Below, in pieces: positions 10,135 through 64,000 of a DNA stretch of 64,000 nt (within the stretch, counting starts at the first letter, position 1; the number at the start of each line of letters is the position of its first letter). The DNA comes from Theobroma cacao (Eukaryota > Streptophyta > Magnoliopsida > Malvales > Malvaceae), in NCBI RefSeq assembly GCF_000208745.1, contig NC_030855.1, positions 11,891,088-11,955,087 of the forward strand, written 5' to 3'. Under the pieces are notes generated by a model, which saw nothing but the letters and a program-made list of their open reading frames with translations, ran no database searches and was not told where the DNA came from. Both the position numbers and the translations under genes were made by a program.

Positions 10135-10218
10135 ATGTATAAATACATTTGGCAATGTATCGATAACTTTCTATCTAAAATGCTTCTTAAGGCATTGTCT
10201 TAAATGTATTGATACATC
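10135..10218. repeat. Palindromic array, family 3 copy A
   Basis: There are three units of a palindrome close to ATGTATCGATACAT, centred at 10141.5, 10161.5 and 10210.5. The spacings are 20 and 49 bp, matching those in copy B (20, 20, 21, 50, 21). Confidence 0.7.
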
Positions 10219-10439
10219 AAGCATAAAACTCAATCTCTTGGGAAATTATCCTTCAGTTTTCAATTCTCTAAGTCCTTCTATTTAGGGGACTATCCTTTTG
10301 GGCTAAGCTTCACATGAACTAAGCTTTCTTTCATAATATTCTTGTTTATAACATATCACACTAATTCATTCAAAATACGTACATAATCTTATAGTCATCA
10401 AACCTATAGAATCTTTTCAGTAATCATAAACACATAATG

Positions 10440-10900
10440 ACTATGAGTGGTGCTTGACTCATTCAAGCGAATAGTGGTCAAATCACCACTACTTTAGATT
10501 CCTCGAGCTGTTGTGAGTGGCATCTCGCCTCACCCACATTTTTGAGTGGTGCTCATCCCAACTCAAGTGAATAATGGTCAAATCCCCACTACCTCGAATT
10601 CCTTGAGTATAGGATCTTTCATATCCATAACTTATTTCATGATCATATAATCATGCTCATCGAGTCATTTTCATACTTAGCTCATAGCATACATGAAAAC
10701 TACATCACATACAACTCATCAGCATACAATTCATGCCATAGCACATATTTCACAATCTTTGCTATGGGTGGGAATGCCTACATCCACCTAAGCATATCAT
10801 CATCATCAACATACATTTCTTGCCATAGCACATATTTCACAATCTTTGCTATAGGTGGGAATGCCTACATCCACCCAAGCATACATTTCATAATAACCAT
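10440..10900. repeat. Tandem repeats inside the family 3 LTR
   Basis: Two kinds are present. At 10446-10612 a GAGTGGTGCT...AATAGTGGTCAAATC block occurs twice. At 10730-10880 a block with GCCATAGCACATATTTCAC and GGTGGGAATGCCTACATCC occurs twice, about 83 bp apart and nearly identical. The second pair is recent judging by its identity. Confidence 0.7.
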
Positions 10901-12437
10901 GATACCTTGACTGTAACGACTTCCTCCAATGACTGTTATCGGTGTACAAGTTACGTAAGCAAGCCTACATAACTCGACAAGCATTTTTAACTATATTTAT
11001 CTTACCAAATAATTCTTTTCCTTTATATCATCTTTTTACTCCAATTATTTCACTAAACATTTGTACGATTATATCATTAATAACATACACCAAATATAAC
11101 AACTGAATTTTTCACCACACACCAAATTTTATAACAAATATTACTAAGTATTTGTGCATCCTCGTTTAGCAAACATAATTCCAAATTTGGTTGATAATAT
11201 CCAAGGGCCTTAGCCCAAGATAAATTTTTAAAAATACATCTCTCTTTTAAAACCATAAATGGACTCAACAACTAGACAATGGAGTGACACAAGGATGAGC
11301 TACGAGATGCCATTTACCTATGCAGTAAACTAACGTCCTCTTATTGCATCTATTCCCAAAACTTTTACTTATCCACCTTTTGCTTGCTAAATTACCTATA
11401 TATTTTCTTTAGATATTTATACAATTTAGCAAGAAATTAACGCAAGTACAAGTGGTCATCAACAAGTAAATAGTGATAAGAAGGGTTGTCGATCCCCTAG
11501 GGAGTTGGCTTAATAATTGCTACAAGTACTAACATTAAAACAAGTCAATTTTATCCAAGCAAATGACAATTAAGAATTGGAGGAAAAATAAAATTTAAAT
11601 ACCTACAACTAGACTAAGAATTGCAATCCAAACTTAATGAAGAAGCAATGGAATGAAGCCTAGGATTATGAGTCCAACTAATACTTTATTTGGCTGCTAG
11701 ATTGATTAATTACCTACTTTTATGGAAATCAATGTTAGTCTAGGATCTTCTAGCATATATGACTTTCTTTCAAGCTATCATATAATTGCCTAAGTTGATC
11801 CTCTATATATCTATAGGGAATTAATTCAAGCTAAGTTCGTTAAGCCTAGGTCTTAACAATTGACTATATATGGTTAATAAGTGTATGCCTACCGTATTAA
11901 CTAATCACCCATTCGATTTATTAAATGGAATTAACATACATTATCCAAATCTAGGTCTATTAACAATATCTTTGTCAAGCATCATCTAGAAACCCAAACT
12001 TATCTTGCTGGTGATCAACCAACAAAAGAGAAAAGAAATACGGATTTGAATAAACATTGATAATTTCATAAAGAGTATGTAAAAGCTAATTCAAATATCC
12101 AAACTACATAATAGCATCCACCATATTCCTAGACAAAGAAATCTAGCTGCAAATATCCATAATACAAACCAACATCTTAACAAAATAGAGCATTTCTACA
12201 AAGAGAGTTAAAGAGAGAAAATCGAATCTATTGTGAGAAAGACTTCGATTACAGCTTTTCCATGCTTGATTTTCAAGTTTTTATTTCCTTTTTCCTTCTT
12301 TATTTTCAGCCACTTTTTTTCCAAAATAAGGTTTGCTCTTTAGATGTTCTTTTCTTAGCTAAAAAACCACTTTTTTATACTCCCACTCATTACCATATGA
12401 TTAGAAATTAGATGTGCAAGATTCATTAATTCTCATG

Positions 12438-12604
12438 TTGATTTTGTGGCGCCAAAGTTACTGAGTTACCCTTGTGTGGCTATTTGTTTGGCACTGTGGT
12501 GCCACGAGGTTGGTACTACAACATCAAACTTTTTGACTTGAAAACTTAAGATGTTGGTTGGAATTAGTGCCATGATGTAGAAGGATTCGAAGTTATGATG
12601 CCAA
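12438..12604. repeat. Palindromic array in the Athila-like 3' LTR
   Basis: Five degenerate palindromes of 18 bp resemble TTGGCACTGTGGTGCCAA and are centred at 12446.5, 12496.5, 12518.5, 12573.5 and 12595.5. The spacings are 50, 22, 55 and 22 bp. The best unit has perfect arms TGGCAC and GTGCCA (12489-12504). The array lies next to the shared module, as in other LTRs here. Confidence 0.7.
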
Positions 12605-12639
12605 ACTTGTTGTGTTGAGTTTACTACAGTTTTGCTTAT

Positions 12640-12815
12640 TCTAAAATGATATCAACCACGATCCAATCAAAACTGGGCAAAGTGATGAAGACAAAAGTTT
12701 TAGCTCCTCCTTTTGTCTTTCCAATGGTCCAAGAATCACATCAATCGAACTTTTGTAGCTCGAGTTGTACTCAAAACACCACAACATGTTTAGAAATCAC
12801 TTTAAGCCAACTTGC
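12640..12815 (-). repeat. Shared LTR module, Athila-like 3' LTR copy
   Basis: Read on the minus strand this block runs CGAGCTACAAAAGTTCG, GATTCTTGGACCATTGGAAAG, ACTTTGCCCAGTTTTGAT, GTGGTTGATATC. The same ordered phrases occur at 16075-16255, 24130-24325, 55890-56065 and 63060-63225. This copy is among the more diverged. Confidence 0.75.
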
Positions 12816-13068
12816 ATCATCAATTGTTGTTTAAGCTCTATTTCCTTGCACACCATCAATAATAAAAGATTAAATAAGTAAAGGCTGAAATTACGACTTT
12901 TTAATAAGAAATTAAACTAAAATTGATTGAATGAAAATGCTAAAACATAAATTGAACTATTATTAGGAAAAGCATAAAAGATACCTATAAATTACTTAAA
13001 AACTAAAGGACTTAGATCTATTTATGTTCCAAAAATGTGCAGGATAACTCAATATAATAGAGTTATCA

Positions 13069-13081
13069 CACGCCCAAACTT
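13069..13081 (-). other. Polypurine tract of the Athila-like element
   Basis: The minus-strand AAGTTTGGGCGTG lies immediately upstream of the LTR start TGATAACTC. It is one base off the run of G usual in this lineage. Confidence 0.7.
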
Positions 13082-14456: not shown

Positions 14457-15084
14457 CTAAAATGATTCACTTTCCTCATCTTCCTCGTCTTCATCATTGG
14501 TGGGATTCATAACCATGGCTGGGAAATTGGTCATGTGCATCTGCAAACGTATAACACAAACGTGAAAATATCTGCTCCATGGTTGCCATGTGACATTCAA
14601 AATGCTCCATCCTTTGTGGCATAAAAAGTTTAGCATGACGTGATGGAGGTCTTGGTAGAGCGGATGAACTCCCATCAATAACAACTTGTTCCAATGCTTG
14701 AAATCTTTAAATGATCCTAGTTTCAGTGGAGCTTTCGATTATAAAATCTCTTCATTGCTGCTCCATTGGACTCCTGCTTGCTTGTACAACACGGTGATGA
14801 GTGACGGGTACCATAAGTCTTTTTTAACTGAACCGGTAGTATGAATGATATTATTGAAAATCAATTGACCAATATTATTGGATTTACTTGACACGATGGC
14901 ATAGAGCAAGACTAATCTATCTTTAGTCAAGTCGCTCAAATGCTTGATCAACAACATCTTGGTTGCAATGAAATAGTGCCATACCTTGTATTCATTTTTT
15001 AACGCACTTGCCTTGAATGACACCGGAACCCCTCAATAATATCCAAGTAGTGCAAAGGTTACCAAGCAAATTGAGGCCTTCTTT
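14457..15084 (-). pseudogene. Env-like ORF of the Athila-like element, C-terminal part
   Basis: The minus-strand translation over 14739-15023 contains SFKASALKNEYKVWHYFIAT, then RLVLLYAIVSSKSNNIGQLI, then WYPSLITVLYKQAGVQW. It resembles the putative plant transposon protein domain that follows pol in Athila-type elements. The segment continues at 15024-15084 in another frame, so there is at least one frameshift. The N-terminal part is at 16493-16873; the two were split by the solo LTR at 15090-16487. An acidic tail (DEEDEESE) closes the ORF at 14457. The function of this domain is not established. Confidence 0.7.
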
Positions 15085-16492
15085 GATATTGTCAGTTAAA
15101 ATCCTACTACGCAAGTATACATATTGAATAGATAGTATATTAGCAAGCAAGGTATCGATCCCACAGGGAATTAATCTAAAACTTTACTAAGTACTAAAAT
15201 TAGAACAATTTAATCTTATCCAAATAATCAAAATTAAATAATTAATTAAAACTAAAATTAAAACCAACAAGAAAAATCAAAATAATAACTTGAGAAAATA
15301 TCCAATCAATAAACCTATGATTACAATATCTTCACACTTCATCTAAATCTTACCTCTCTTTCTTAACTTATTTCAATGGGTTGAATTGCTAACCTAGAGT
15401 CTTCAATTATTTATAAAGGTCTCCTGACTCATTTTATGAAAATATTTATTTTAATCAAAACACTATATGCCTATGTGAATTGAAATTAAAATAGACTCAT
15501 TAAGTTCAAGCTCTAATCTGGCTACATATGGCCTATAGGTATATTCCTATCCTATACACAAATCAATTAATATGATCATATGCTATCCCAATTTTAGTCT
15601 ATTCTAAACTCCCTTTCCCAAGTTACCAAGCAATTAAAAGCATTAAGAACAAATTGGAATAAACAATTCAAATCTCATTGAAAATAATTAATAAAGAGAT
15701 TTAAAAACTTAGACTACAAGTGAGTTCAATCGCAATCCTAAAAAAAGAAATTTAGCTACTCATAATCGCAAAATAAAATAACATTATATAAAATTCAACC
15801 ATTGAAAGTATCAAGAACGATAAAAGCTAAGGAATAAAACAAAACAATATTTGCCGTCTTGATCTCCAAGTTTCAACCTCAACTTCTAGTTTCTTGAATC
15901 TCCTAAAGGTTCTCCTCTCTAATATTGTTTAACATATCCTATTTATACTAATAACCTTAACCTAAAGTTCCTTAAGCTGGCCTAGGGTTTAATTAGGCTT
16001 AAAAGTATAATAAGAGGCCCAAAAATCAAATGTCAATTTTTACAAATTTTTATTCTCGGCATAGTACGTCTAGCTATTTTTTGACATGATTTTCTCTATA
16101 TTCAATGCAGAAATGGGCAAAGTAATCTTCATAAAAGTTGTAGCTATGTCTCTTATCTTTCCCATGGTGTAAGAATCGCATTATTTGGAGTTCTGTAACT
16201 CGAGATATAGCCAAAATACTGAAGCATATGCAAGCAGATTTTGGGTCTTTCAACAATTTACTTTCCAAAATTAAGCCCAAATCATCTTTAATCCTACAAA
16301 AGAAATATTAAAACTGATAAATAATAACCAAATTAACATGAATAACATAAAATTAAAATAACTCACTAAAAAAATTAACTAATTATAAAAACAACTAAAA
16401 TAAGTAAATTATAATTAAAAATTGAGGACTTAGCTGATATTTAATAATAAAATTGGAATAAAATAATTCTATAAAATAGAATTATCAGATAT
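15085..16492 (-). mobile_element. Solo LTR inserted in the env-like ORF, target duplication GATAT
   Basis: The LTR spans 15090-16487 (1,398 bp) with TG and CA termini. GATAT repeats stand at 15085-15089 and 16488-16492. On the minus strand it begins TGATAATTC, like the Athila-like LTR at 13068, and it is the same type as the LTR that starts at 62796 in the opposite orientation. It contains the shared module (16075-16255) and the ATCGATCCCACAGGGAA block near its left end. The host reading frame on each side meets at the duplication. Confidence 0.9.
16075..16255 (-). repeat. Shared LTR module, copy in the GATAT solo LTR
   Basis: The minus strand reads GCATATGCTTCAGTATTTTG, ATATCTCGAGTTACAGAACT, GCTACAACTTTTATG, TACTTTGCCCATTTCTG in order. 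Only one palindrome-like unit (TAGTACGTCTA near 16064) follows it, so the array here is reduced or lost. Confidence 0.75.
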
Positions 16493-16873
16493 CCACATTT
16501 CCATTCAAATACTGGGCATACTCATTGTTTTCCACCTTTGGTGCATTATAGAATTGATTAATGGTGTGGGTATCCGACAAAATTCTTTTCTGCTACAAAA
16601 TGCCACACCATTCTCATGTTCTAAAGCATTGGCATAAAATTCTCTAACAACTAGTAATATTGCGGCTTCAGGTGGAGCACAAAAGGATTGCCAATTTTTC
16701 ACCTCATTTCTATCATAAATATAGCTAAACCAGACATGAGGAATATCTATACCTCTCTTAGGGACCAAAAATTTTTTAACTAATGATTGAGTATGGCATT
16801 TAAATTCCTCAACTGACACAAATTTAGCACTATCAAACCCATTATTGCTAGCTTTAGCATTCTTAGGTGCCAT
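16493..16873 (-). pseudogene. Env-like ORF of the Athila-like element, N-terminal part
   Basis: The minus-strand ORF starts at ATG 16873 (MAPKNAKASNNGFDSAKFVS). It has FVSVEEFKCHTQSLVKKFLV, RGIDIPHVW, NWQSFCAPPEAAILLVVREF, YANALEHENGVAFC. This is the start of the putative plant transposon protein domain. A frameshift occurs near 16560, after which the second frame (NNEYAQYLNG) runs to the GATAT target site and would continue at 15084. It is interrupted and not translatable as one protein. Confidence 0.75.
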
Positions 16874-17950
16874 GGATTTCTCAAAAATTCACAATTAATT
16901 CTCCACAAATTCCAAACACCTAATGAACACCAAATATATCCACAAATAATCACAAATAACTCAATTGTCTCCAAAATCTATGCTAACAACAATAGTATCA
17001 CCAATAATAAACAAATTGTCATAAACTAGCACAATGTGCAACAAATTGACACTATTCAATGTTGATAATTATACAATTCTCACAATCCAACAACAATCTT
17101 CATAAAACTTCAAGCACAAAGTCAATACTACCAACAATATACAAAGCCCATCAAGAATTATCAACACAACTCTTTTTAAATAATCAATTTCCTCAAAAAT
17201 AGAATTTCTTGTAAAAATTTCAACACTTACTTGCAAAAATTTGCACTTTGATATAGAAAAGTTGATGAAAATTCTTGAATTTTGATTTTTGTAGCAAGAA
17301 CTTGGTGTTTTGATAGGTTTTATGAATGGGTTTGAAAGATTTTTTTGAATTTGGAAGAAAAAATTTTGGGAAATTTGGGGCTAGGGTTTGAATTCAGAAG
17401 AAGAGGGAAAGAAGGGGCTTTACATATGGGAAAGTGGCCTGACTCGATCCTGCGATGCAAAATGGTTGGTGTCGTGAGACCAAAGCTTTTGATTTGGCTA
17501 CTGAGTTTTATTAAAATGGCGTATCAGCATGAAATGATTAGTGTTGTAGCTCCAAATGTTTTGTTCCTCAATCTTAAAATGCTACATTTTTGGTGTTATG
17601 GTGTTAAGTGATTGGTGATGTGGCACCAAACTCTTTTGTTTGGCTCGTAGGTATTCAACATTATGGCACTGTGGCATAAATAAGTTGGCACTACAATGCC
17701 AAAATCTCTGTTTGTCCACCTTTGTTGCTGCATTTTGGTGTTATAGCGCAAAAAAGTTGGCGTTGCGGCACCAAAGTTTCTATTTTGCCATTATTTCTCC
17801 TACAACAATGAAAAGATAGACTTAAGAAATAATGCTTCAATACTTAAAATATGAAAGAAAGAAAGAACAAAAGATTAAAACATATAACAGATCATAAAGA
17901 AAAACTTAAAACAAGGAAATCAAGTGTAAATAACTTAGGTTGGCGCCTAA
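16874..17950 (-). mobile_element. Athila-like region between pol and the env-like ORF
   Basis: No coding sequence is recognised. The right half carries a long palindromic array (17465-17775). The remainder is AT-rich spacer. An open frame on the plus strand at 17345-17611 overlaps the array and is rejected as a gene. Confidence 0.5.
17465..17775. repeat. Long palindromic array inside the Athila-like element
   Basis: The units resemble TTGGCGTTGCGGCACCAA and are centred at 17474.5, 17502.5 (weak), 17524.5, 17546.5, 17598.5, 17620.5, 17648.5 (weak), 17671.5, 17693.5, 17743.5 and 17765.5. Good units include TTGGTGTCGTGAGACCAA, TTGGTGATGTGGCACCAA and TTGGCACTACAATGCCAA. Spacings are mainly 22 and 50-52 bp, with two of 28. 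Confidence 0.75.
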
Positions 17951-21941: not shown

Positions 21942-22812
21942 ACTCTGTCACGATCTGATTTCCAAGCCGTGACTAGTGCATGGACTCAATGGACGCAGTC
22001 CATTTAGTTCAAGCAAGCCTATCTATATTATCCTGCTCATTATTCCATCAAAGTTACTAAAGTCACATTTTGTAATTTCAAACCAAAATAATGCTAACCA
22101 TTTCCGACTCTTAGTGACATACCAATCTAAATATACATACATTGTCTAAAATATATCTCTTAACAATTTACATCAGGTTTGACCATGCATATCAAAAAGA
22201 AGACTTGATTTCCAACGGAGAGACTTAGACAAATGTACAGCTACTGAATGTCAAGACACCTAACAAGGGTCGAATATACGAAGACACCTCGACCTCGTTA
22301 CCAGCTGCCTCTTGATTTGAAAACATGAAGTTGGAAACGATGAGTATAAATCGAGTGAGTGAACATATGAAGGGAACAAGCAATATAATAAGAAAAAGTT
22401 TCAAATCATAATGCACTTATTTGAAAACGATGCACTTTAGCTTAAGTCCTTATTAAAACCCTCAATTTAACCCTTGGTTGATAAATCATGTGACGAAAGA
22501 GAATTCATATTCAACATAAAATTGGAGAAGTGGAAAATATGGCAAAAACCCGCCAAATGATAAGCGAAACAGAAAGTTTCATTCTCGCTGTAATGACAAA
22601 CAGAGTAACAAGAAAGACTTCCTTTCATCTTAAATAAACCATTTCACTGCAATGCAAATCAATTTGGAACACTAAAAAAAATGGTCAAGGTTCAGCAAGC
22701 ATGATTTCACATACATTATAGTCACAAATATTATTCATAAAATCTTTATTGCATTAATACATGTGAACATATGCAAACATATATGTATATATATACATCC
22801 ACTGCCTCCCCA

Positions 22813-22995
22813 ACTCATGTGCATCCCCCCACATCGTGCACATAGCTCGAGTCATCGTGTGCATCCCCCCACATCGTGCACACCTAATGCCGTCATGTAC
22901 ATCCCCCCACATCGTGCACATGGGCAATATAATCATTCGCCTACCTCACCACCGTCATTACCGGTATGTGCATCCCCCCACATCGTGCACACACA
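22813..22995. repeat. Minisatellite in gypsy type 1 LTR
   Basis: The core CATCCCCCCACATCGTGCAC is repeated four times, at about 22823, 22862, 22901 and 22973, with variable linkers. The solo LTR at 55164 has a different minisatellite at the matching place (56395-56545). Confidence 0.85.
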
Positions 22996-23969: not shown

Positions 23970-24440
23970 TAGGGAAAGGTCCAAAATCCTCTGAAAGAGG
24001 TCCTTTAAGTAGCTCCAAAAAGTCCTAGCTTCAAAAACCCCAAAATCTTGTTATTTGTAAAATTTCAATGAGGGTCGTGGCTCTAAATTTCCAGCGCCGC
24101 GGCATTCAAACATTCTACCAATTTCGGTTCTTTTAGCGCAATCTTTTCACTTCGACAAAGATTTTGACCACCTTCCCATCAACACTGGGCAAAGTGGTAA
24201 ACATTAAAATTGTAGCGTTGCCTCTTAGCTTTCTAGTGGTCCAAAAATCATGTTATTTGAACTTTTGTAGTGGGAGATAGACTTGAAAAACTGAAACATA
24301 TGCAGATAGGGCTATTGTTCATTATGCACCTTTCTTCACTAATTAAAATTATTTTTGATCCTACTCCTATAACGACATAAAATAATTATAAGTAATGTAA
24401 AACTAGCATCATTAACTCAAATTAAACCTTTAAACATAAG
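23970..24440 (-). repeat. Segment shared with the Athila-type LTR at 62930-63390
   Basis: Read on the minus strand, this follows 62930-63390 over its whole length. Matching phrases include TAGGAGTAGGATCAAAAATA, AAAGGTGCATAATG, TTTACCACTTTGC, GGTCAAAATCTTTGT and GAGCCACGACCCT. It includes the shared module at 24130-24325 and a palindrome pair centred at 24077.5 and 24099.5, 22 bp apart. The homologous solo LTR at 55164 lacks this segment at the equivalent place, so the LTR is chimeric. Confidence 0.75.
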
Positions 24441-25980: not shown

Positions 25981-27183
25981 TGTAGATCCCAAGTAAATTT
26001 GTTAGAGGGGGTGAATAGGATTTTTTAGCTCTTATTAAAATTGGCTCCAAATTGAGAGCAAGTTAAAGATCAATAATGACTAATTCGATGGAAGATAAGG
26101 GATGGTTTAACAATGAATGAAAATAAAACAAAAATAGAGCAGACAATACTCAACAATTTAGAGTGGTTCAGTTCAAGACCTACATCCACTACCTTGATTG
26201 TTCAACCAAGGATTTTTGAAATCAACTTACTAAAAACGGTGGAATTCTCAAGCTCCCACCAAGCTTTACAGTGGCTTTTAGCAAGCTCAACAACAACCTT
26301 TTATAATAGTTTTTCCCGGGATCAACCAAACCCCAAACTAACTTTTCTAGGCTAAGTTAGAACCTATACACCCAATCGAGCAATCCAAGCTTAAGTAAAT
26401 TCCTTTAGAGTGTCTCGCACACTCTAAGTGTACAAAGAGAAGAGAAATAAAGGTGTACCTATAATCACTTACTTGATCTAAGTGGAACAAAGTGAAGTGC
26501 TTGAATCTTTTACAAGGATAAAAGTGAAGTACGGAAAGTATGCTGAAGGTTTTTGTAGTTTTTAAGCTCTTTTTGGACTTGAAAGCCTTGGATCAATTTT
26601 TTAGCCATTGGGAGCCTCTTAAGTACTTCAAAAATCAGCTCTAATAGGTGTTAGGTAGTTTTTGACTGTCGAAAACAGTTTGGTGGCAGTTATAGCCGTT
26701 AATCTGTCTTCTAGTGCTCAATTCAAATTTTCTGACAAAATGATCTTAGTCAACTAACTGTGCTCTTAGTCGACTAAGTTGTCTCTGTCTTCTGATCTTA
26801 GGTTTTGGCAGTGAGCACTTAGTCGACTAAATTATTTCTTAGTCGATTAAGTTGTTTCTGTCTTGAAGTCCAGATTTATGGCAGTATGCTCTTAGTTGAC
26901 TAACTTACTTCTTGGTCGACTAAGTCTTCTCTATCTCTCAATCCTCTTGAGCCCGCCAACATCTTCTTTGAATTTTAGCTAACTAATACCTTTCATTATC
27001 AAATTAAGAGGCTTCTGTTTTGTTGATCAATTGTTACTCCTTATTCATATGATTTTTTATATGTGCCTTTAAATGATTGATTCATTCTTAACATACAATT
27101 TTTGTCCTTCACACTCAAGTAAAGATATTAGACACAAATAAATGGGAATGTTTTATTATCATCAAAAACTAATGAAGCCAACA
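25981..27183 (-). mobile_element. 3' LTR of the SIRE-like copia element
   Basis: The plus-strand left end is TGTAGATCCCAAG. The right end, AGCCAACA, is exact because the purine tract follows it. The length is 1,203 bp. It is homologous over its length to the LTR at 44754-45978 and carries the same palindromic array. The 5-bp duplication cannot be tested because the 5' end of the element is lost. Confidence 0.85.
26745..27008. repeat. Palindromic array CTTAGTCGACTAAG, copia LTR A
   Basis: Six units begin at 26745, 26765, 26818, 26838, 26891 and 26911, with spacings of exactly 20, 53, 20, 53, 20. One unit (26765-26778) is a perfect 14-bp palindrome; the rest differ by one to three bases. Two weaker units follow at 26974 and 26995. 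Spacers are related (TCTGTCT and GGCAGT phrases), so the unit is a 73-bp tandem repeat containing two palindromes. Confidence 0.95.
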
Positions 27184-27198
27184 GTCTCCCCCTTTTTG
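27184..27198 (-). other. Polypurine tract of the SIRE-like copia
   Basis: The minus-strand AAAAAGGGGGAGAC lies directly upstream of the LTR start TGTTGGCTTC. Confidence 0.85.
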
Positions 27199-29848: not shown

Positions 29849-30267
29849 GTTTTGAGATGTTTTTGGCTTGGGGTTTCATGGGTTTGAGAAGAAAGGATTT
29901 CATTTTAGAAAGGGTTGGTTTCAAATGAGAGGAAAGGAAGGGAGAATGAGTTAAGAGAGGTTAACTTTTCTCAAAACCGTTTGTCTCCCCCTTTTTTAAT
30001 ATGGTTGGTAACCTCCTCTTTTCAAAATTCAAAAATTTGCCTTTCAATTTTATTTTTTGGTTAAGCGATTTTTCTCTTTTTTTTCTTCACTCGGTAGACT
30101 GTTTCTTTTTACTATTTTATTCATTCTCTCTTTATTTGACTGAGTCTTATTATTTAAAGAGATAGAATACTCTTAGTTGATTAAGAGATTATTATTCGAC
30201 TAAGTGCATACTATTTTGTGAATGAAAAACTAAAAATTTTCTTACATCTCTTGCATATTAACCATGC
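29849..30267 (-). mobile_element. Spacer between copia pol and the env-like ORF
   Basis: This stretch shows no domain. Isolated CTTAGT-like half palindromes occur near 30171-30205 (CTTAGTTGATTAAG), outside the LTR. Confidence 0.5.
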
Positions 30268-43301: not shown

Positions 43302-44680
43302 TGTAACACCCCTAATTTTGGAGGTAATTTAAGTTAATGAAGGATGATCTATTTAATATGTATTATGCCTTGAAGACATCGATGATATGTTATGTATGTC
43401 AAGTGTGGAGAGTGTATACGTTTACACTTAAGTAAATTTTTTTGAGGAAATATCAAAAATGATGAATGAACTCTATGGTTTAAGGTTTTGAATTGTATTT
43501 GATGTGATAATTGAGGGTATGTATGTGTGGATTCGATTTTATAACTGATTTGAGGTTGTGGAAGACATTTTAAATGGGTTAAGCTTTAAAAGGAGAAATT
43601 TTTATGAATTGAGACTTAAAAAGTCGATCCTAGTGCATAGAGGGTCGATCTTATGAAGTAAAAAGTAGGGGAAGTAAAGCATACTGGCCAAGGATCGACT
43701 ATATGCCGTCTATAGTTAATCCTAGGAATGAAAAATGGAAGCGATATGGACTTTCTGGTACAGGATCGACTATAGACTCTCCATAATAGATCCTATGAAG
43801 CAAAAATGACTAAAAATGACATTTTGGTCAAGATCAACTATAGACCCTTTATAGTTAATCCGATGAATGGGGAAAAGGGTGAAAACAAACTTTTTGGTCT
43901 AGAATCAACTACAGACCCTCCATATTCAACCCTAAGACGCCCAATCAACTTAAAAAGCCCAAAACCAAACATTTCTTCATTTTTTGTTAACTCCACATTT
44001 CTCCACTCATCTTCCCTCAACTCTCACACCCTTCAAACCCAATAAAATTCAATCATAAATCATGGATTCTAAGTGTTAAAGGAAACAGATTTCACTCCTA
44101 ACAACTTAATTGTGTGATTTTGCTTTCTCTCTCTAGAACTCAAACCCTGACCTTCTAAAATGATTTTTGAAGGCATTTGGAGTGGATTGGAGCTTTGGAA
44201 ATGCTCCTAGAGGTAAGATTAAGCATTTTTACTGATTGGTTTTCAATTTAATTGATTAATAACTTAAATTTGATTTAGTCTAGCTTTAAAGAAATTGGCC
44301 CCTAAAGTTGACTAGGGATTTGGGGTAAATAGTTGTACAATTCAACTTCTAAGGTATGGTTTTAGCTCATTATTAAATGATTTTGAGCTTATACATTGGA
44401 TTACTAAAGATTTGTTTATTTTTATAAAAGTTGGCATTTTTCGAAAGTTAGGATTTAACTAATTTTGTGATGTTCTAATGTACTTAAGGGAAGATTAAGC
44501 AATTTGGGCACATTTGTGGGCCAAAATATGGTTGGAGGCTAAGAATCGACGTTTGGCTACGGACTACTTCTAATTTGTCACTGTGAGTAGGTTAATTAAA
44601 TGCATGTGATGCATAATGCATGGAAAATGCACTGCACTAGTACTACATTATGAATGTAGGCCGATTTGAACATGCCTAGG
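43302..44680 (+). mobile_element. 3' LTR of the plus-strand gypsy element, right end lost
   Basis: It begins TGTAACACCCCTAATTTTGG after the purine tract. Around 43618-43938 it carries a tandem palindromic array. The right end is not seen, because another LTR type begins at 44681 (TGTCACATCCC). The length seen is about 1.38 kb. Confidence 0.75.
43618..43938. repeat. Palindromic array in the plus-strand gypsy LTR
   Basis: Nine units of a semi-palindrome (AGGATCGACTAT and its inverse ATAGTCGATCCT) are centred at 43647.5, 43695.5, 43718.5, 43766.5, 43789.5, 43834.5, 43857.5, 43905.5 and 43928.5, with a weaker one near 43625. The spacings are 48, 23, 48, 23, 45, 23, 48 and 23 bp. The repeat period is 68-71 bp. 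Confidence 0.85.
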
Positions 44681-44753: not shown

Positions 44754-45978
44754 TGTTGGTCCCAAGTAAATGTGCTAGAGGGGGGTGAATAGCATAATTT
44801 GGCTCTTTCAAAAATTGACTCTAAGTGGGAACAAATGCAAGTGAAAAAAAAAGAATGAAAATAAGAACAAAAACATAGTAGACAGCATAGCAGAATTTAG
44901 AATGATTCAATCCAAGACCTACATCCACTACTTTGATTGTTCAACCAAGGATTTTCCAATTAATCCACTAAGAACGGTGAAATTCACAAGCTTTCACCAA
45001 GCTTTTACAATGGCTTTTACGAAGCTTAGTCAAAACCTTTCACAATAGTTTTTACCGGGATCAACTAAAACCCAACACCTAACTTATCAAGGCTAAATTA
45101 GAACTTATACTCAATGAAGCTAACCCAAGCTTGAGCAACCCCTTAGAGTGTCTCCCACACTCTAAGTAAACAGAAAATAGAGAAAAAATGAAGTACAATT
45201 GATCACCTAACTGATCTAAGATGTACAAAGTTAAGCTCAAACACTTTTTCAAAGGATGGGAGTGAAATACAAGTGTAAAGAGAAGGTTTTTAGTCTTCTA
45301 AGCTCAAAATCACTATGGATGGCTTCTCTATCTTGTTTTTGACTATTGGAGAGGCTTTAAATACTTGCAAAATCAATTCTGGCCGTTGGAGATAGAAACT
45401 AGCCATTTCTAGCCGTTATTTTGTCTTTTAGTACTCAATTGAAATTTTTTGACAGAATGATCTTAGTCGACTAACTGCGCTCTTAGTCGACTAAGTTGTC
45501 TCTGTTTTCTGATCCCAATTTTTGGCAGTGAGCTCTTAGTCGACTAACTTCCTTTTTAGTCAATTAAGTTGTTTCTGTTTTGAAGTCTAGATTTCTAGCA
45601 GTAGGCTCTTAGTTGACTAACAATACTTCTTAGTCGACTAAGTCTTTTCTGTTTCTAAATCGACCATCTCCATTTTTGAGTTTTAGTTGGCCAACTCCCT
45701 TGATTATTTGACTAAGTGGCTTCTGTTTGTGTCCAGCACTCGCTTAACTGATTAAATCTTATGTTAACCAGTTAAGACTAATTTGTCTTCATTAAAGCTC
45801 TTTCTTCTTTGCTTGTTTAACCAATTAACCCATTTTGCAACTGAACAAACATCTTGACTTGCTTTCATATACTAAATATATTAATTAATTTAAGCTTTCT
45901 CCTGCACACTTAAACAATATAATTAGACATCAATGAATGGGAATATTTTGTTATCATCAAAAACATATAGAGTCAACA
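44754..45978 (-). mobile_element. 3' LTR of a second SIRE-like copia element (copy B)
   Basis: The termini are TGTTGGTCCCAAG and GAGTCAACA, and the length is 1,225 bp. It is homologous throughout to 25981-27183, including the array. It is followed at the right by a degenerate purine tract (minus strand AATAAGAGAGAGAA) and copia 3' noncoding sequence. Confidence 0.85.
45462..45830. repeat. Palindromic array, copia LTR B, with a second palindrome type
   Basis: CTTAGTCGACTAAG-like units begin at 45462, 45482, 45535, 45555, 45608, 45629, 45682 and 45703. Spacings are 20, 53, 20, 53, 21, 53 and 21 bp. A different palindrome, TTAACTGATTAA or TTAACCAGTTAA, then starts at 45744, 45764 and 45817, spaced 20 and 53 bp. 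So the spacing rule is kept although the motif changes. Confidence 0.93.
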
Positions 45979-47260: not shown

Positions 47261-47407
47261 TATCTATCGTTACATTATTGAATGTATCGATACTTACAAG
47301 CATCCATCAATACATTGGTAAAATGTATTAATACATTTCACACAAAAAGCCTCCTATGGCAATCTGTTTAGAATGTATCGATACATGCTCCATATGTATT
47401 GATAATT
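47261..47407. repeat. Palindromic array, family 3 copy B
   Basis: Units like ATGTATCGATACAT are centred at 47268.5, 47288.5, 47308.5, 47329.5, 47379.5 and 47400.5. The spacings are 20, 20, 21, 50 and 21 bp. Units at 47329.5 and 47379.5 are perfect 14-bp palindromes. Confidence 0.85.
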
Positions 47408-55858: not shown

Positions 55859-56198
55859 TTTCTCGCTGCAGCGAGAAACATTCTCAGTTTACATATATTT
55901 TTGTATTCCAAGTATATCTCCCACTAAAAAAGTCTAATTGACATAATTTTTAAACCATTAGAAAGCTAAGAGGCTGGGCTACAACTTTTATGTTTACCAC
56001 TTTGCCCAGTTCTTACTGAAATGTGGTCAAAATCCGTGTCAAAGTGAAGGCACTACACACAAAAATTTGGAACCACCAGAGAGTTTCTCACTGTAGCGAG
56101 AATCCATTTTCGCTGCAGCGAGAATTCTTTTTTGCTGCAGTGAGAAATCGGGCTGGTTTGTTCCCCCACCATTTGAGAGTTTCTCGCTACAACGAGAT
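55859..56198. repeat. Palindromic array TTTCTCGCTGCAGCGAGAAA in a gypsy type 1 solo LTR
   Basis: The first unit (55859-55878) is a perfect 20-bp palindrome. Others are centred at 56093.5, 56115.5, 56137.5 and 56189.5, with spacings of 22, 22 and 52 bp. A decayed half unit lies near 55889, 21 bp from the first. The shared module (55890-56065) separates the first unit from the rest. Confidence 0.88.
55890..56065 (+). repeat. Shared LTR module in the ATTTT solo LTR, opposite orientation
   Basis: The plus strand reads TATCTCCCACTA, TTTTTAAACCATTAGAAAGC, GGGCTACAACTTTTATG, TTTACCACTTTGCCCAGTTC, GTGGTCAAAATCCGTGTC. It runs against the direction of its LTR, whereas the copies at 12640, 16075, 24130 and 63060 run with theirs. 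The related LTR at 21946 has no module at this place. Confidence 0.85.
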
Positions 56199-56394
56199 TC
56201 AGAGTAAATGACAATAAAGGGATTTTCGCATGCCACAAAATCCATTCCTACCATATTGCACATCAAAGTGAACACATTGACAATAATCAAGTTTCTCATT
56301 ATTCATTTCAATCACATATTATAATCATAAACTTTCTATCACATATACATATATAAACATATATAAACACGTACACCACCCCACTTCATTCATC

Positions 56395-57667: not shown

Positions 57668-59670
57668 CTCTAATGATAATTGGCCTCGCCCTCTTATTCA
57701 TGGTTAAAATTTAAAAAGATTAATAGAAATGATGTTGTTTTCCTTGAATCTCTGGTTACTATGGAGGAAGTGAAATTGATTGTTTAAAGATGTGATGGGT
57801 TGAAAACTCTTGGGCCTGATGGCTTCAACATTAACTTTTTCAAGCATTCTTGGTAGATTGTGAAGCAGGATATATTTGATTTCATCATGGAATTTATGAA
57901 TACTGTGAAGCTTGAGAAAGGTTTGAATTGTTCCTTTATTGCTCTTATTCTGAAGGTTGACAATCCCATATTTATTAATGAATATAGACCTATAAGCTTG
58001 GTGAAATTTCTTAATAAGATTCTTGCTAAATTTTTGGCTAACAAATTGAAGAAAGTTCATCCTGTTGTTATCAATGATAATCAATCTGCTTTTAATAGTG
58101 GTCAACAAATTACGAATAACATCTTGCTTGCCAACGAAATCATCCGTAGTGTGAAGAAAGGTATTCACTGTCATGGTGGTATTGTTCTGAAATTAGATTT
58201 AGAAAAGGCTTTTGATTGTGTGAATAGAGAATTTCTTCTCCAAGTTATGGAAGCTATGGGATTTGGTTCTAGATGGATATCTTGGATCAAGGAATGTATT
58301 ACCAATGTTTGGGTTGTTGTTCTTATTAATGGTTTAGCTACTAATGAGTTTGTCAGAAGTCGTGGAATCAAGTAGGGCGACCTCTTCTTGTCTTTTTTAT
58401 TTTTTTTGGCTGTAGAAGTTCTACATCTTCTTTTTTCCAAAGCTGAATCTCTATAGTTTTTTTGAGGAATTTCTTTTTGATATTAAGGTTATCCATCTTT
58501 CATTTGCAATTTGTAGATGATACTATTATTTCAATGGAGCCTATTTCGCAGCATGCTATGGTAATTAAACAACTTTTTAGCTATCTTGAGCTTACATCTG
58601 CTCTTCGAATTAACTTCAATAAGTCTTATATTTATCCTATCAGCACTTCAAATTCATCAGCTCTAGAGTTTACTTCCATCCTTCAATGCTCTGTGGTTTC
58701 GCTGCCTTTCAACTATCTCGACCTTCCTCTTAGTGCTAACCCTCATTTTTCTTGTACTAGGGGCCTTGTTATTAATAAATTTAGGCAAAGACGTGCTTTA
58801 TGGCAGCATAAGTATCTATCCTTTGGTGGTTGTCTTGCTTTAATTAACTCCGTTCTCAACTCTTTCCCATTATACTATCTCTTTATTTTCCCAGCCCCCA
58901 AGGAGTCATTCAAAAGCTTAAGAAAATTAGGAGAGCATTCTTGTGGGGGGAAGTGATCACTCTCATAAATTACATAAGGTCAATTAGAACACTGTTTGTA
59001 AGCTTGAGATTTTTAGAAGTTTAGGTATTTCCAATCTTTGTCATAAAAATTTGGCTCTTTTAGGTAAGTGGTGGTGGCACTATGGTACGAAAGAAAAAGC
59101 TTTATGGCGTCACTTAATTATTGAAAAATATGGAGTTGATAAAGTTCAGTGGATTCCAAAATCTTCTTGGAGGGATAAATTATCAACGATTTGGAAATTT
59201 ATCTCTCAACTCCCATCTAATGATAAGGTGCAAAATTTTATTAGCCTTCACGCATGAAATTGGATTGTTGGGAATGGGGAATCCATTTTTTTTTTATATA
59301 ATAGATGGCTCTTTAATGATGCTTTATGCTTTCGATTTCCTCGCTTTTTCCCTATTTTGTTGGACAAGGAGTCCAGAGTTGTTGATTAATGGAATAATGG
59401 TACATGGTTCATGCTTTTTAGAAGATCGTTGTATTCTTGGGAAAGGGATTCTTATAATGAAATTCTCTGTAAACTCGCCAATGTTTTCCTTTCTCTTAGG
59501 AGAAGTGATAAGTTGATTTGGGTGCATGACTTACATGGTAATTTTTCTGTCAAAAAATTCTGCTCATTGTTGGATTCAAACCCCTTTGATCAAAAAGTTT
59601 GGTTTCATTTGTTGTGGAAAATGTTAATCCCTCTAAAATTCAATTATGGCATTTGGTTTTCACATTAAAA
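57668..59670 (+). pseudogene. LINE ORF2, reverse transcriptase and C-terminal part, broken and 3' truncated
   Basis: Plus-strand frames give KTLGPDGFNINFFKHSW, NEYRPISLVKFLNKILAKFL, DNQSAFNSGQQITNNILLAN, VLKLDLEKAFDCVNREFLLQ, then catalytic LQFVDDTIISME (FVDD where FADD is usual), then RINFNKSYIYPIS, LPFNYLDLPL, GGCLALINSVLNSFPLYYLF, and near the end LIWVHDLHGNFSVKKF and FHLLWKMLIPLKFNYGIW (zf-RVT region). Stops and frameshifts lie around 58377 and 58456. The reading stops at 59670 without a poly-A tail, so the 3' end is lost. Confidence 0.93.
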
Positions 59671-60620: not shown

Positions 60621-62339
60621 ATGTTGAAAGTGATTCCTGACAAATATTATGATTTAGAATTATTTTATATAATGCTTGGAATTATTAAAGATAGAAATTT
60701 AATTTAAAATTTAAATTATTATTTAAATTTAAATTATTTTAATTTAATTTAATTTAATCTACTGCGTGTATGCTGCTGGCTGAGATCAGTGTGTTGTTAT
60801 GTTGTTTTGTTTGTGTCATCCCTGCTTTGTGTTCTGCATAAAGAAAAACATATAGGTATATTATTTTAAAAAAAAAACATATAGGTATTTTTAAAAATGA
60901 ATAGGAAAATAATTTTTACAAAATTATCTTAAGAATAGAAAATATTAAATTTTCATGTAAAATGTTTTCCATAAAAATAAATTTTCTTTGAAAATTAATT
61001 TTCAGTTTCCAAACTGATCATAAATTGGTAATATGATTTTAACTGTGAGAGCCACATGTGGATACAGCCTAAAGGCTAATAATAGTGACACAACCTCAAC
61101 CAATAATTAAATGACTTACAAAAGGTTAAACCTTAATACCGTTTATTTTAAATTACCGGGAAAGTGAATTTTGAAAAAGAATGTGAAGTGGTGCATATCA
61201 ACAAATTATGAAAACCTTACCATCATGTATGCATGTGAAGCTTCAGTAGGACATAGCAGAGCATATGAAATCATAAAGCTTTGATTGGACCAAACACAAA
61301 GCATCTGATAAAGATGCACATTGCACTCAATGATAGAAATGATAAAATTTATATAAAGAATCTGCTGCCATAATTATCACAACCAAGTGGAGGTCCCAAG
61401 GACCGGGTTAATGGAAGGTGTCAATTGAGAAAAGCCAAACTCCCATGAAAAGTGAAGAGGTTCTTCCAATCACAGAGTTCAAAAGGAAAAAAGTAGAAGA
61501 AAAAGAAAAAAGAGCCTGACGCATATCATCATTGGAAAAAGGAATCGAAATCCGAACGAGAGCTGCTCACAACTTTCTACATTGGAGCCATGATAAAGTG
61601 GATAAGGCAAGCAGGACATCGAAGCCATTAGAGAGTTTTAATGGAAGTAATAAGTTAACTTCACGTCCACCTTTACACCATAGTAAGTGTGATTATGACA
61701 AAATCTTCCAGGGTAATCAATTTTCTGCTCGACTTGCTCGATGCTAACAACAAAGGATTTTATAAGTAAGTTGTATTGCAGCTTTTATGGTTTCAAATTC
61801 TAGTGCTATATGTTTTTAAGTAACCCGTCAATTTGAAACTGACAGTTACCGAGTCAATTTCATCCTGCTGCCAACCAACAATTCTCAGTATATTTATCCT
61901 ATAATTAGATATACAGAGCCAGAGAGCAAGCAGACTTATCACCAAAACAACATGATGTCAGTCGCTATAAATTATTATGAGGTAAAACAACAAATGTTTT
62001 GACATATAATTTCTCTCCAAAAGGACAGTCTGTTGAAAGTTAACGTTTGCATTTCAATCAATACGTGGGAGCACCAAAACATATTTTGCTTGGTTGTACT
62101 AGTTTTATATAACTAAGCTTCCTGTTTTCCTTTAGGTTGTACGTGTATACTTGCATGTAATTGCAAGACTTTATGTTATCACTTGTTTTGCATATCATGA
62201 CAAGTGTAATGCATGTTAGTGTAAGCCCTACAAATCAATTGATTTTGTACTTGTAAAACACTACATTAGTTAGTCATATTTCATATTAAATATATTATGA
62301 ATATTTTATATAATGTATGAGGTATTTCTTTATCCATGA
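60621..62339. other. Unassigned AT-rich sequence
   Basis: No gene with a recognisable domain is found. A 71-codon frame at 61532-61747 has no family resemblance. An AT-only inverted stretch (ATTTAAATTTAAATTA type) lies near 60695-60760. Confidence 0.4.
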
Positions 62340-62795
62340 GTTTATTTATAAAGAGTTATGAGAAGCTTATGTAGATAAAGTCCTTGGAACATAATGGCCT
62401 TGCAAAGAAATTATAAAGGTTATAATTATGAGATTCTTATGCATCAAAGCCTTATTCCTAAATATGTTCCTAGTCATTGTATTGTCAAGAATAAGGGCAT
62501 TGACAGTGCTCAAAGGCTAGTACATGCTAAGCCTCCTTACTTTAAAAGTAAGCAATTGATCTCATAGGTTGAAGTATGTGAGATACTTGGAGATAGTATG
62601 TGGGTGCTTGTTAAGGAACAAGTTCACTAAACATGACCCGCTATGAGAGCTCCATTTGGTATTTCACTCAAGTGTTTATGGAAATACTCTCATGTGTCAG
62701 TAGTGTAAGTAATTCTTAGACTTGTGATACCAGGTCATCTTGTATGTAAATTGTCATGCTTTGATTTCACCTTTACAGGTCTAGAGGTGACTAGA
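62340..62795 (+). mobile_element. LTR of the TGTTGGTATATG family, copy C, truncated
   Basis: It is homologous to 52040-52580 (AACATAATGGCCTTGCAAAG, AAGTTCACTAAACATGACCC, CATTTGGTATTTCACTCAAG). Homology breaks at about 62795, where another LTR begins. The left end could not be placed. Confidence 0.7.
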
Positions 62796-64000
62796 TGATG
62801 AGTGCATCAAATACATATATGTAACGGGAGATTAAATACCTAATTAGTCTAAGTTAGACTAGATTTAGGATCGAATTTAGGTGTTTTTATTTATTTTATT
62901 AGTTTAGTTTAATTTATGTTTAAATGTTTATTTTGAGTTAATAACGTTAGTTTTATGTTATTTATATTTATTTTTATGTTTTTGTAGGAGTAGGATCAAA
63001 AATAATTTCAATTGGTGAAAAAAGGTGCATAATGGACTGGTGCTCTATTTGCATATGTTTCTGTTTTTCAACCATATTTCCCACTACAGAAGTTTAAATG
63101 ACATGATTTTTAAACCATTAGAAAGATAAAAGGCAGGGCTACAACTTTGATGTTTACCACTTTGCTCAATTCTGATCAGAAGATGGTCAAAATCTTTGTT
63201 GAAATGAAAGTACTGCACTAGAAGAACAAAATTGGGTAGAACATTTGAGAGCCACGACTCTGGAAATTGAGAGCCACGACCCTAACCGTATATTCCAAAA
63301 ATAACAAGCTTATGGAATTTTGGAAGCTAGGGCTTTTGGAGGATATTTAAAGGGCCTTTTTCAGAGGTTTTCGGGAGGAGGTAACTAGTAATTTCTCTAG
63401 AGAAAAAGAGCGAAGAACAAAGGAAGAAAGAAAGAGAATTGGAGGGAGAATCAAGATCACAAAGCTTCAACTATTAGTTTTCTCTCTCTACTTTTGTGTT
63501 TTTCTTATTTTCTTTGACTTGGATCATTGGTTAATTTTCTTTGGATGAAGTTTTTATTAGATACTATGAACTAAACTATTTTTCTAGGATTGTAATTGAA
63601 CGCACATGTAATCTAAATTTTCAATCTCTTTCTTGCTTATTTTTAATGGGATTTGAATTGTTTATTCCAATTTGTTCTTAATGCTTTTAATTGCTTGGCC
63701 ACCAATTAAATTGATTTAGAAACCTAAACAAACTTGGGAAAGAGAGTTTAGAGTAGACTAAAATTGGGATAGCATATGATCATATTAATTGATTTACATA
63801 TAGGATAGGGATATACCTATAGGCCATATGTAGCTAGATTAGAGTCTGAACTTAATGAGTTTGTTTTAATTTTAATTCACATAGGGATACAGTGTTTTGG
63901 TTAAAATAGATATTTTTGTAAGAAGAGACGGGAGACCGTTCTAAATAATTTAGGACTCTAGGTTAGCAATTCAACCCATTGAAATAAGTTAGGGAAGAGA
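62796..64000 (+). mobile_element. Athila-type LTR, plus orientation, runs off the window
   Basis: It begins near 62796 (TGATGAGTGCATC). From about 63480 it is the reverse complement of 15340-15900 in the GATAT solo LTR (for example GCATATGATCATATTAATTG and CTATAGGCCATATGTAGCTA). It also contains the shared module (63060-63225) and a palindrome pair. The LTR should extend roughly 250-300 bp past the window end, by comparison with the 1,398-bp copy. Confidence 0.8.
63060..63283 (+). repeat. Shared LTR module plus palindrome pair
   Basis: The module phrases CCCACTACAGAAGTTTAAAT, GATTTTTAAACCATTAG, TTTACCACTTTGCTC and GGTCAAAATCTTTG are followed after about 27 bp by two AGAGCCACGACTCT-like units centred at 63254.5 and 63276.5, 22 bp apart. 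The first unit has AGAG and CTCT arms. Confidence 0.8.

Follow-up and report, generated by a model that had tools for sequence, protein, structure and literature searches.

Palindromic arrays of unlike motif and near-equal spacing in LTR retrotransposons of a Theobroma cacao window

Several families of LTR retrotransposons within a stretch of 64,000 nucleotides from Theobroma cacao (NC_030855.1, positions 11,891,088 to 11,955,087 of the forward strand; the "window") carry arrays of short dyads, which differ in motif and yet follow one another at nearly the same distance. An earlier note on this DNA had listed six motif sets, and all of them were found in or near the places assigned to them, but the set of the "plus-strand gypsy" element (P) contains no palindrome in the form proposed. 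The near-equal spacing of unlike motifs is borne out in this window by a tally of steps and by a motif-agnostic scan for dyad pairs. The two steps claimed, 20-23 and 45-55 bp, do occur, but both are parts of a single repeat of 69-77 bp.

Spacing of dyads across the window

Nine arrays yield 33 consecutive steps between dyad centres, of which 20 measure 20-23 bp and 12 measure 49-54 bp, while the remaining one, of 72 bp, perhaps reflects a skipped site. The tally omits the P set, a single dyad at 55859, side hits of one Sirevirus-like array, a pair at 30172/30191 and isolated hits, and it uses a dyad-search threshold that passes about seven false hits per motif. Although the dyads are between 14 and 20 bp long, with gaps of 8 down to 2 bp separating neighbours, their centres remain 20-23 bp apart.

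The agnostic scan considered similar dyads 15-110 bp apart (score at least 19, one of six cut-offs; 30 Markov shuffles) and returned 12 pairs at 19-23 bp against 0.23 expected, spread over seven arrays, as well as six pairs at 45-55 bp (0.27 expected), 12 at 68-76 bp (0.37 expected) and one at 24-44 bp (0.83 expected). These settings had been loosened after one stricter trial, which gave four pairs compared to none in shuffles. The comparison of centre distances with shuffles that had been suggested for larger sets of LTRs thus reveals, when run on this window, an excess at 19-23 and 45-55 bp. A second scan, with up to two mismatches per dyad and 40 shuffles, agrees with the first on 20-23 bp: when similar motifs were required, eight pairs fell at 20-23 bp (0.55 expected) and four at 24-29 bp (0.53 expected), and when motif similarity was dropped, three fell at 20-23 bp (0.80), ten at 30-44 bp (3.2) and eight at 45-55 bp (1.95). 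The arrays are beyond chance, and both shuffle scans led us to discount a chance origin. AT-rich dyads in homologous segments form an exception to the spacing, being 27/28 bp apart at 8.2 kb and 27 bp apart at 37.1 kb.

Scans of the window for Rfam families (at gathering scores) and for tRNAs gave no match in either case, and the dyad-pair patterns had none in viral contigs. A scan of bacterial and archaeal genomes returned five bacterial contigs only, none of them plant. Two reverse transcriptase (RT) pieces used as queries found no relatives; the first presumably resembles a LINE RT.

Sirevirus-like arrays

Two arrays lie in Sirevirus-like LTRs on the minus strand. SIRE-A (26745..26924) comprises six dyads of the CTTAGTCGACTAAG type in steps of 20/53/20/53/20 bp, and SIRE-B (45462..45642) six dyads in steps of 20/53/20/53/21 bp; perfect dyads are found at 26765, 45482 and 45629. 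Weaker variant dyads continue from SIRE-B to about 45830, and weak side hits lie 173 bp before this array and 74 and 40 bp after it. Two extra dyads of the SIRE type, 19 bp apart, occupy a linker-like position at 30172..30204 (minus strand), with copia pol fragments on one side and the 3' LTR on the other, and Pfam places RVT_2 at 30693-31118 and 31389-31727 on the same strand as SIRE-A. The elements are decayed and hold, besides these two linker-like dyads and the weaker variants, six clear dyads per LTR.

The LTR of SIRE-A starts at about 27183 (minus strand) behind polypurine tract (PPT)-like and inverted-repeat words. The PPT-like junction is at 27197(-), with a decayed counterpart at about 45985(-), and the inverted-repeat arms are at 27168(-)/27193(+) and 45963(-)/45991(+); PMC2829016 describes such features. 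Judged by the junction with the 3' LTR (PPT, attachment site and the inverted repeat beside it), the hosts of SIRE-A and SIRE-B are Sireviruses, the attachment site of SIRE-A being AC/TG, not AT/TG. Measured from the LTR start, the dyad centres span about 266-432 bp (SIRE-A) and 343-510 bp (SIRE-B), in line with the clustering from 200-400 bp into the LTR that is expected of palindromic Sirevirus motifs. The SIRE core is GTCGAC; because it lacks the CGG-CCG signature, the arrays are filed as a variant and not as typical members of the Sirevirus repeated motifs (RM).

The SIRE dyads and their spacing are better conserved than the remainder of the LTR. Between SIRE-A and SIRE-B the dyads agree at 79/84 positions and the remaining LTR at 780/991 (Fisher P 3e-4), and a single indel event falls in the 180-bp array compared to 38 in the other 939 bp (binomial P 0.009). 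From unit to unit, dyad identity amounts to 74/84 (A) and 76/84 (B, allowing its 1-bp shift), and that of the ungapped long spacers to 52/117 (A) and 55/117 (B). With gaps allowed the spacers reach 76/107 and 79/100, values which are not decisive, because the aligner brings shuffled spacers to 72% too.

Arrays beside a shared LTR module

The A1 array on the minus strand (A1-17; 17465..17775) consists of imperfect 18-20 bp dyads of the TTGGCRCY..RGYGCCAA type in steps of 72/52/22/51/22/50/22 bp, with a unit of about 72 bp; a second copy on the same strand (A1-12; 12437..12605) has steps of 50/22/54/23 bp. The G1 array of gypsy type 1 (G1-56; 56084..56199, plus strand) is of the TTTCTCGCTGCAGCGAGAAA type with steps of 22/22/52 bp, and a single perfect G1 dyad stands at 55859-55878, 225 bp before it. 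The B-type array (B-63; 63247..63284, plus strand) is a AGAGCCACGACTCT pair 22 bp apart, and its homologous copy (B-24; 24070..24107, minus strand) is likewise a pair 22 bp apart. A weak third dyad is seen 53 bp further on from B-63.

Contrary to the description of the families as unrelated, three of them (A1, G1 and B) have in common a homologous module of about 160 bp, detected by nhmmer at five places with E values of at most 9.5e-36 and also by self-BLAST. The module lies beside the arrays G1-56 (55889..56048, plus strand; nhmmer E 5e-46), B-63 (63049..63208, plus strand; E 2.2e-47), B-24 (24146..24304, minus strand; E 1.2e-49) and A1-12 (12639..12789, minus strand; E 2e-38), and in a fifth LTR (16086..16233, minus strand; E 9.5e-36), where no dyads were seen after the module on reading the sequence. 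The first two dyad centres behind the module are at 46.5 and 68.5 bp in B-63 and B-24 and at 45.5 and 67.5 bp in G1; the motifs differ, and the distance from module to dyad is equal within 1 bp. When B-63 is aligned with G1-56, gaps of 4 bp and 1 bp open between the module and the array, so that simple homology base by base does not account for the equal distance.

Family 3 and P arrays

Family 3 is represented by two arrays on the plus strand, F3-a (10135..10217; ATGTATCGATACAT type, steps 20/49) and F3-b (47262..47407; six dyads, steps 20/20/21/50/21), and no domain indicating its class was found in the pieces scanned. The P array (43691..43933, plus strand) is made up of 33-bp inverted-repeat units of the AGGATCGACTATAGA-3-TCTATAGTCGATCCT type, recurring at 71/68/71 bp. 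Its proposed palindrome, AGGATCGACTAT (43691-43933), was rejected: it forms one arm, and the dyad is the 33-bp unit with two inverted arms.

Comparisons between copies or units revealed no contrast in conservation between dyads and remainder in B, A1 or P. B-63 and B-24 agree at 25/32 dyad positions and 367/452 elsewhere, and none of five indel events falls between the module and the second dyad (P 0.44); the A1-17 dyads agree at 76/120 and the aligned spacers at 53/89 positions, the P units at 147/198 and their aligned spacers at 134/184. The earlier argument that tandem duplication alone does not account for the arrays thus stands for SIRE only, where dyad identity and the indel contrast set it aside as the whole story.

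Pfam matches to RVT_1 and RVP_2 near A1-17 and to SH3_Tf2-1 close to P point to Ty3/gypsy, and some array-bearing LTRs are probably of this class. A scan with Sirevirus inverted-repeat words gave four hits, all at the SIRE places, and one with PPT words gave seven weak-to-strong hits, of which those near F3-b and P (47448(-) and 43984(-)) are weak and on the opposite strand. A1, G1, B, family 3 and P are not filed as Sirevirus RM members. A sequence scan for an Asp-type primer site, relevant to A1, G1 and B, had no hits. The name "Athila-like" is that of the earlier note, and a pol could not be linked to the A1, G1 and B LTRs.

Helical phase, TATA-like words and CpG

At 10.5 bp per turn, phase coherence is 0.87 for SIRE, 0.83 for B, 0.76 for G1, 0.41 for A1 and -0.01 for family 3, which reaches 0.82 at 10.0 bp per turn. 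None of 2000 rebuilt controls attained the coherence at 10.5 bp, and for the best value over 10.0-10.8 bp P was 0.002 (1000 controls). The proposal that most dyads of an array face the same side of the helix accordingly fits SIRE, B and G1 and, more weakly, A1, but at 10.5 bp does not fit family 3.

TATA-like words, chosen as patterns after the sequence had been read, lie 58-62 bp downstream of A1-12, B-63, B-24, F3-a and F3-b; downstream of the SIRE arrays they are predicted at 99 bp (B) and 120 bp (A). The P array has no TATA-like word downstream, A1-17 has one upstream and its sole downstream one at 210 bp, and in six of ten arrays such words also occur on the opposite side. A position of the arrays upstream of TATA-like sequences is suggested, and judged by these words several arrays are likely promoter-proximal.

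The observed/expected ratio of CpG is 1.21 in dyads, 0.22 in spacers and 0.32 in flanks, a contrast that is partly built in, because CG is present in most of the consensus words. CpG retention between copies did not differ significantly between dyads and elsewhere (SIRE 3/5 vs 3/9; B 2/4 vs 0/8), and was dropped as a sign of protection.

Possible origin and function of the arrays

The explanation we favour, to which we give about even credence, regards the arrays as promoter-proximal cis-regulatory elements of the U3 region, whose dyads are putative sites for dimeric proteins and whose geometry is kept by selection; U3 function, protein binding, dimerisation and co-evolution with the binding factor are what we infer from the layout. 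Each dyad would be bound by a dimeric protein, probably a transcription factor of the host and possibly a product of the element, and no element-encoded DNA-binding gene was recognised by Pfam among 30 open stretches. A unit would consist of two or three dyads separated by about two turns of the helix, and its recurrence each 70-75 bp or so may stem from old tandem duplication, and dyads and spacing would have been retained by selection on the active ancestors of the elements. In the module-sharing lineage, the motif would have been swapped and the distance from the module kept.

Alternatively, the functional form might be a hairpin of RNA or single-stranded DNA, in which neighbouring dyads pair and which either serves the element or is cut by the host into small RNAs. 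This is possible, if on balance unlikely. A SIRE pair can be drawn as a 13-bp stem with an 8-nt loop, and SIRE pairs fold at -15.8, -11.1 and -17.9 kcal/mol (z -5.3, -4.3 and -6.0); G1 folds at -36 (z -7.8), family 3 moderately (z -3.2 and -3.4), P is present only as an inverted-repeat unit, and for maize Sireviruses the available part of the literature links LTR regions rich in palindromes with hairpins and with small RNAs (cited in PMC10760457, PMC5311732). However, four of 14 units fold within about one SD of shuffles (B-63 z 0.07, B-24 -1.0, one P -1.0, one A1 -1.1), and within pairs the inverted match is not consistently better than the direct one, a comparison that does not separate protein sites from hairpins. 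Moreover, the lone dyad at 55859 and the runs of three at 20-22 bp in F3-b and G1 do not suit obligatory pairing, and the latter fit separate sites better.

That each lineage neutrally duplicated a chance palindrome in tandem, with a common spacing that reflects coincidence or inheritance combined with the selective eye of the reader, appears improbable. It would agree with the tandem repeats called in SIRE-A and SIRE-B (period 73 each) and G1 (period 22) and with the 71-bp self-repeat of P (self-BLAST), and since the module is common to A1, G1 and B, the geometry of these three families may be inherited. The missing contrast between dyads and spacers outside SIRE also speaks for it, and its absence in A1-17 and P slightly lowers our overall confidence in regulatory sites and raises that in neutral duplication. 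Yet the SIRE dyads and spacing outlast the remaining LTR, seven arrays in the agnostic scan have equal spacings, and the centre distance stays at about 20-22 bp despite changing motif and gap length.

Very improbable, finally, is that the dyads are points of recombination or template switching at which array and module travel between LTRs as a cassette: a copy at 22.5 kb that resembles G1 carries a single dyad at the place taken up in G1-56 by a dyad, the module and four further dyads (in BLAST it goes with the first G1-56 dyad, under a loose global alignment with the last), and local homology of B-63 with G1-56 ends at 63235, just short of the array, but this is a single case for which simple deletion suffices, and a cassette alone leaves the spacing unexplained.

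Relation to known systems

The earlier note knew of no description of the shared geometry, and indeed the spacing was not found in titles or abstracts of the literature searched; palindromic motifs of Sireviruses, however, have been published (PMC2829016). Six words drawn from the motifs of SIRE, family 3, G1 and P, but not of A1 or B, turned up in one paper, which is unrelated, and the accessible parts of PMC12844716 and PMC11302176 add nothing on palindromes.

The available part of the account by Bousios et al. (2010) describes RMs that are family-specific, palindromic and located upstream of the TATA box (PMC2829016). As here, these motifs are CpG-rich and concentrate in the LTR's upper half, and elements with an env-like gene carry extra linker copies. 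The Tnd-1 motif, ACAATCGATTGT, shares the central TCGA with the SIRE and family 3 motifs and is a published exception also lacking CGG-CCG. In contrast to the arrays described here, which have other cores, two to eight dyads and in part probable Ty3/gypsy hosts, the motifs of 2010 are for the most part built around CGG-CCG, occur in eight or more copies, belong to Ty1/copia and are reported absent from other Ty1/copia elements; a spacing rule is not seen in that part of the account (PMC2829016). Work on maize Sireviruses from 2016, as cited in the available portions of PMC5311732 and PMC10760457, likewise deals with fast-evolving palindrome clusters of strong predicted structure in LTR regulatory regions, but builds on small-RNA data, whereas the present arrays rest on sequence. 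Such arrays are stated to recur across TE families and organisms, with no spacing rule in the text available.

The targets of VANC proteins in VANDAL transposons (Hosaka et al. 2017; PMC5735166) are similarly short, non-coding tandem motifs, which vary among related elements and are read by sequence-specific proteins. They differ in that they belong to DNA transposons, comprise 8-9 bases and have a known element-encoded binding protein, and the part of that text available mentions neither "palindrom" nor "spacing" (PMC5735166).

Implications

What seems to be new is the layout in probable Ty3/gypsy LTRs, together with the common spacing. A general LTR control code for Ty1/copia and Ty3/gypsy elements is a doubtful extension: dyads two turns apart, repeated at about seven turns (roughly half a nucleosome core), would be bound by dimeric readers of element-specific specificity in a fixed geometry, providing each family with a private activator or anti-silencing channel. 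If valid beyond this window, the spacing would offer a sequence-independent signature for regulatory arrays in any LTR family. Were it general, it would suggest a common reader geometry behind seemingly unrelated motifs, carry the account of Sirevirus palindromes over to Ty3/gypsy elements and make it possible to test directly whether each family of retrotransposons has a private regulatory specificity.

Palindrome arrays and their steps

The window has 34% GC and is rich in decayed LTR retrotransposon pieces, of kinds that suggest a flowering plant as the likely source; it also holds plus-strand RVT_1 fragments at 57857-58953, which we take, from their look, to be LINE-like rather than LTR-type. 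Short consensus words that are symmetric and allow for C-to-T decay picked out nine arrays of palindromic motifs (dyads): the Sirevirus-like copia arrays SIRE-A (26745-26924) and SIRE-B (45462-45642), both on the minus strand; F3-a (10135-10217) and F3-b (47262-47407) of family 3; the arrays A1-12 (12437-12605) and A1-17 (17465-17775), named Athila-like; the gypsy type 1 array G1 (56084-56199); and the B-type arrays B-63 (63247-63284) and B-24 (24070-24107). All six motif sets claimed in an earlier note are present, and both of its steps occur, yet as parts of one unit of 69-77 bp. Of 33 consecutive centre-to-centre steps, 20 measure 20-23 bp, 12 measure 49-54 bp and one 72 bp, a count that leaves out a lone dyad at 55859, weak matches beside SIRE-B, a SIRE-type pair at 30172/30191 (19 bp), isolated matches and the inverted-repeat set P (43691-43933). 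A 33-bp inverted repeat recurs in P at 71, 68 and 71 bp, and the word AGGATCGACTAT, previously read as a palindrome, is actually one of its arms.

At 45743-45830 the SIRE-B LTR holds two more near-palindromes of different sequence, CTTAACTGATTAAA and GTTAACCAGTTAAG, whose spacing is 20 bp; a similar word follows about 54 bp on. This is a second motif of the same geometry in one LTR.

All results are drawn from one 64-kb window, and searches of viral contigs and of bacterial and archaeal genomes turned up no plant relatives. Four bacterial contigs contain two TGTATCGATACA words 17-21 bp apart, a spacing limited by the search pattern itself (L001 865-897, L003 6995-7023, L004 4741-4769 and L005 408-439); these are perhaps tandem repressor operators. 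At the end of a Prevotellaceae MAG contig (L002 7150-7360), ATGTATCGATACAT-type words are repeated, with two pairs 21 bp apart.

Spacing compared with chance

Two motif-blind scans compared dyad-pair distances with shuffled sequence. The first used 40 shuffles, dyad arms of 7 with up to 2 mismatches, and paired motifs that shared 10 or more of their 14 bases. It gave 8 pairs against 0.55 expected at 20-23 bp, 4 against 0.53 at 24-29 bp, 6 against 1.27 at 45-55 bp and 11 against 1.12 at 67-76 bp, and it also registered the short steps of family 3. When motif likeness was dropped (at most 1 mismatch), the excess was weaker and less specific (20-23 bp, 3 against 0.80; 30-44 bp, 10 against 3.2; 45-55 bp, 8 against 1.95). 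The second scan, with 30 Markov shuffles and a score of at least 19, one of six printed cut-offs, yielded 47 pairs against 4.0 expected: 12 against 0.23 at 19-23 bp, 1 against 0.83 at 24-44 bp, 6 against 0.27 at 45-55 bp, 1 against 0.5 at 56-67 bp, 12 against 0.37 at 68-76 bp and 15 against 1.6 at 77-110 bp. Its 12 short pairs all lie within seven arrays (SIRE-A, SIRE-B, A1-12, A1-17, B-24, G1 and B-63), and part of the longer-distance pairs are ordinary tandem repeats, e.g., of 87 bp at 10.7 kb. A stricter earlier trial scan found 4 pairs, and none in shuffles.

The spacing rule is not universal, since AT-rich dyads (AAAAT..ATTTT) repeated in homologous LTR-like segments at 8110-8290 and 37009-37190 sit 27/28 bp apart.

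The proposed spacing by helical turns holds on average, but not in every family. The family-averaged pairwise cosine peaks near 10.4-10.5 bp per turn; its value of 0.57 at 10.5 was matched by none of 2000 rebuilt arrays, whose short steps were drawn at random from 15-30 and long ones from 40-65 (best value over 10.0-10.8, P 0.002 in 1000). This control assumes independence among the families, which does not hold for three of them. Family 3 is out of phase at 10.5 (-0.01) and in phase at 10.0 (0.82), and A1 fits moderately (0.41 at 10.5).

A shared module and the number of lineages

The arrays had been assigned to six sets in unrelated families. However, A1-12, G1 and B have an LTR module of about 160 bp in common, found in five places (E 1.2e-49 to 9.5e-36) with a profile built from the same five segments, which self-BLAST connects independently. 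The independent lineages thus number about three or four rather than six: Sirevirus-like copia, the module-bearing group, the unclassified family 3 and P.

The first two dyad centres lie 46.5 and 68.5 bp behind the module in B-63 and B-24, and 45.5 and 67.5 bp behind it in G1, whose motif is unlike that of B. For A1-12 the distances, counted from where its own match ends, are 43.5 and 66.5 bp; this match ends five model positions earlier, so the dyads are 7-8 bp off the B/G1 position. The equal distance does not simply reflect base-by-base homology, because the local alignment of B-63 and G1 opens two gaps, of 4 and 1 bp, between module and array and ends at 63235, directly before the array.

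The fifth module copy, at 16.1 kb, has no dyads discernible on reading the sequence. Around it, at 14739-16885 on the minus strand, an LTR-like insertion appears to interrupt a frame for PF20167 (putative plant transposon protein): the module-bearing LTR lies between the profile start (16505-16885; weak, below cut-off) and the profile end (14739-15029). A G1-like copy at 22501-23040 retains one dyad in place of the dyad, module and four dyads of the G1 LTR (55859-56199), which looks like the loss or gain of a segment between dyads.

Duplication versus conservation

That tandem duplication alone is insufficient, as had been argued, holds for the SIRE arrays, which are more than duplication. Their dyads are identical from unit to unit at 74/84 positions in A and 76/84 in B (the shift in B allowed for), the ungapped long spacers at 52/117 and 55/117; with gaps the spacers reach 76/107 and 79/100, a blind measure, because shuffled spacers attain 72% in the same aligner. 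Between the SIRE-A and SIRE-B LTR copies, 79/84 dyad positions are identical against 780/991 elsewhere (Fisher P 3e-4), and only 1 of 39 indel events falls inside the 180-bp array (binomial P 0.009). Elsewhere this contrast is missing: B-63 and B-24 agree at 25/32 dyad positions and 367/452 others (0/5 indels inside, P 0.44), A1-17 has 76/120 in dyads and 53/89 in spacers, and P 147/198 in units and 134/184 in spacers. Family 3 was excluded, its dyads lying outside the alignment used.

Known systems and candidate function

Bousios et al. 2010 (PMC2829016) describe, for Sirevirus LTRs, repeated palindromic motifs that are specific to the family, rich in CpG and placed upstream of the TATA box, with copies also in the linker. 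The SIRE-like arrays match this description, with a putative TATA box, but lack the CGG-CCG core; the 30172/30191 pair occupies a linker-like position. A 2016 follow-up is cited in PMC5311732 and PMC10760457. Palindromic LTR arrays as such are already described. For the common spacing, of which the earlier note knew no description, and for such arrays in Ty3/gypsy LTRs, no account turned up among the papers listed by literature searches that covered few subscription papers.

TATA-like words, by patterns picked after the sequence was read, follow A1-12, B-63, B-24, F3-a and F3-b at 58-62 bp downstream. The downstream distance is 99 bp for SIRE-B, 120 bp for SIRE-A, at least 121 bp for G1 and 210 bp for A1-17; the pattern scan found none downstream of P. 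This setting is suggestive only, since such words also occur within 260 bp on the opposite side of 6 of 10 arrays. The CpG observed/expected ratio is 1.21 for dyads, against 0.22 for spacers and 0.32 for flanks, a contrast due in part to the CG contained in most consensus words.

The dyads might act as hairpins, a reading we rate second: neighbouring dyads of SIRE, G1 and family 3 are predicted to fold, whereas B and parts of A1 and P fold poorly. Rated first are the dyads as candidate sites for a dimeric protein. The VANC targets (PMC5735166) serve as a functional analogy for these arrays.
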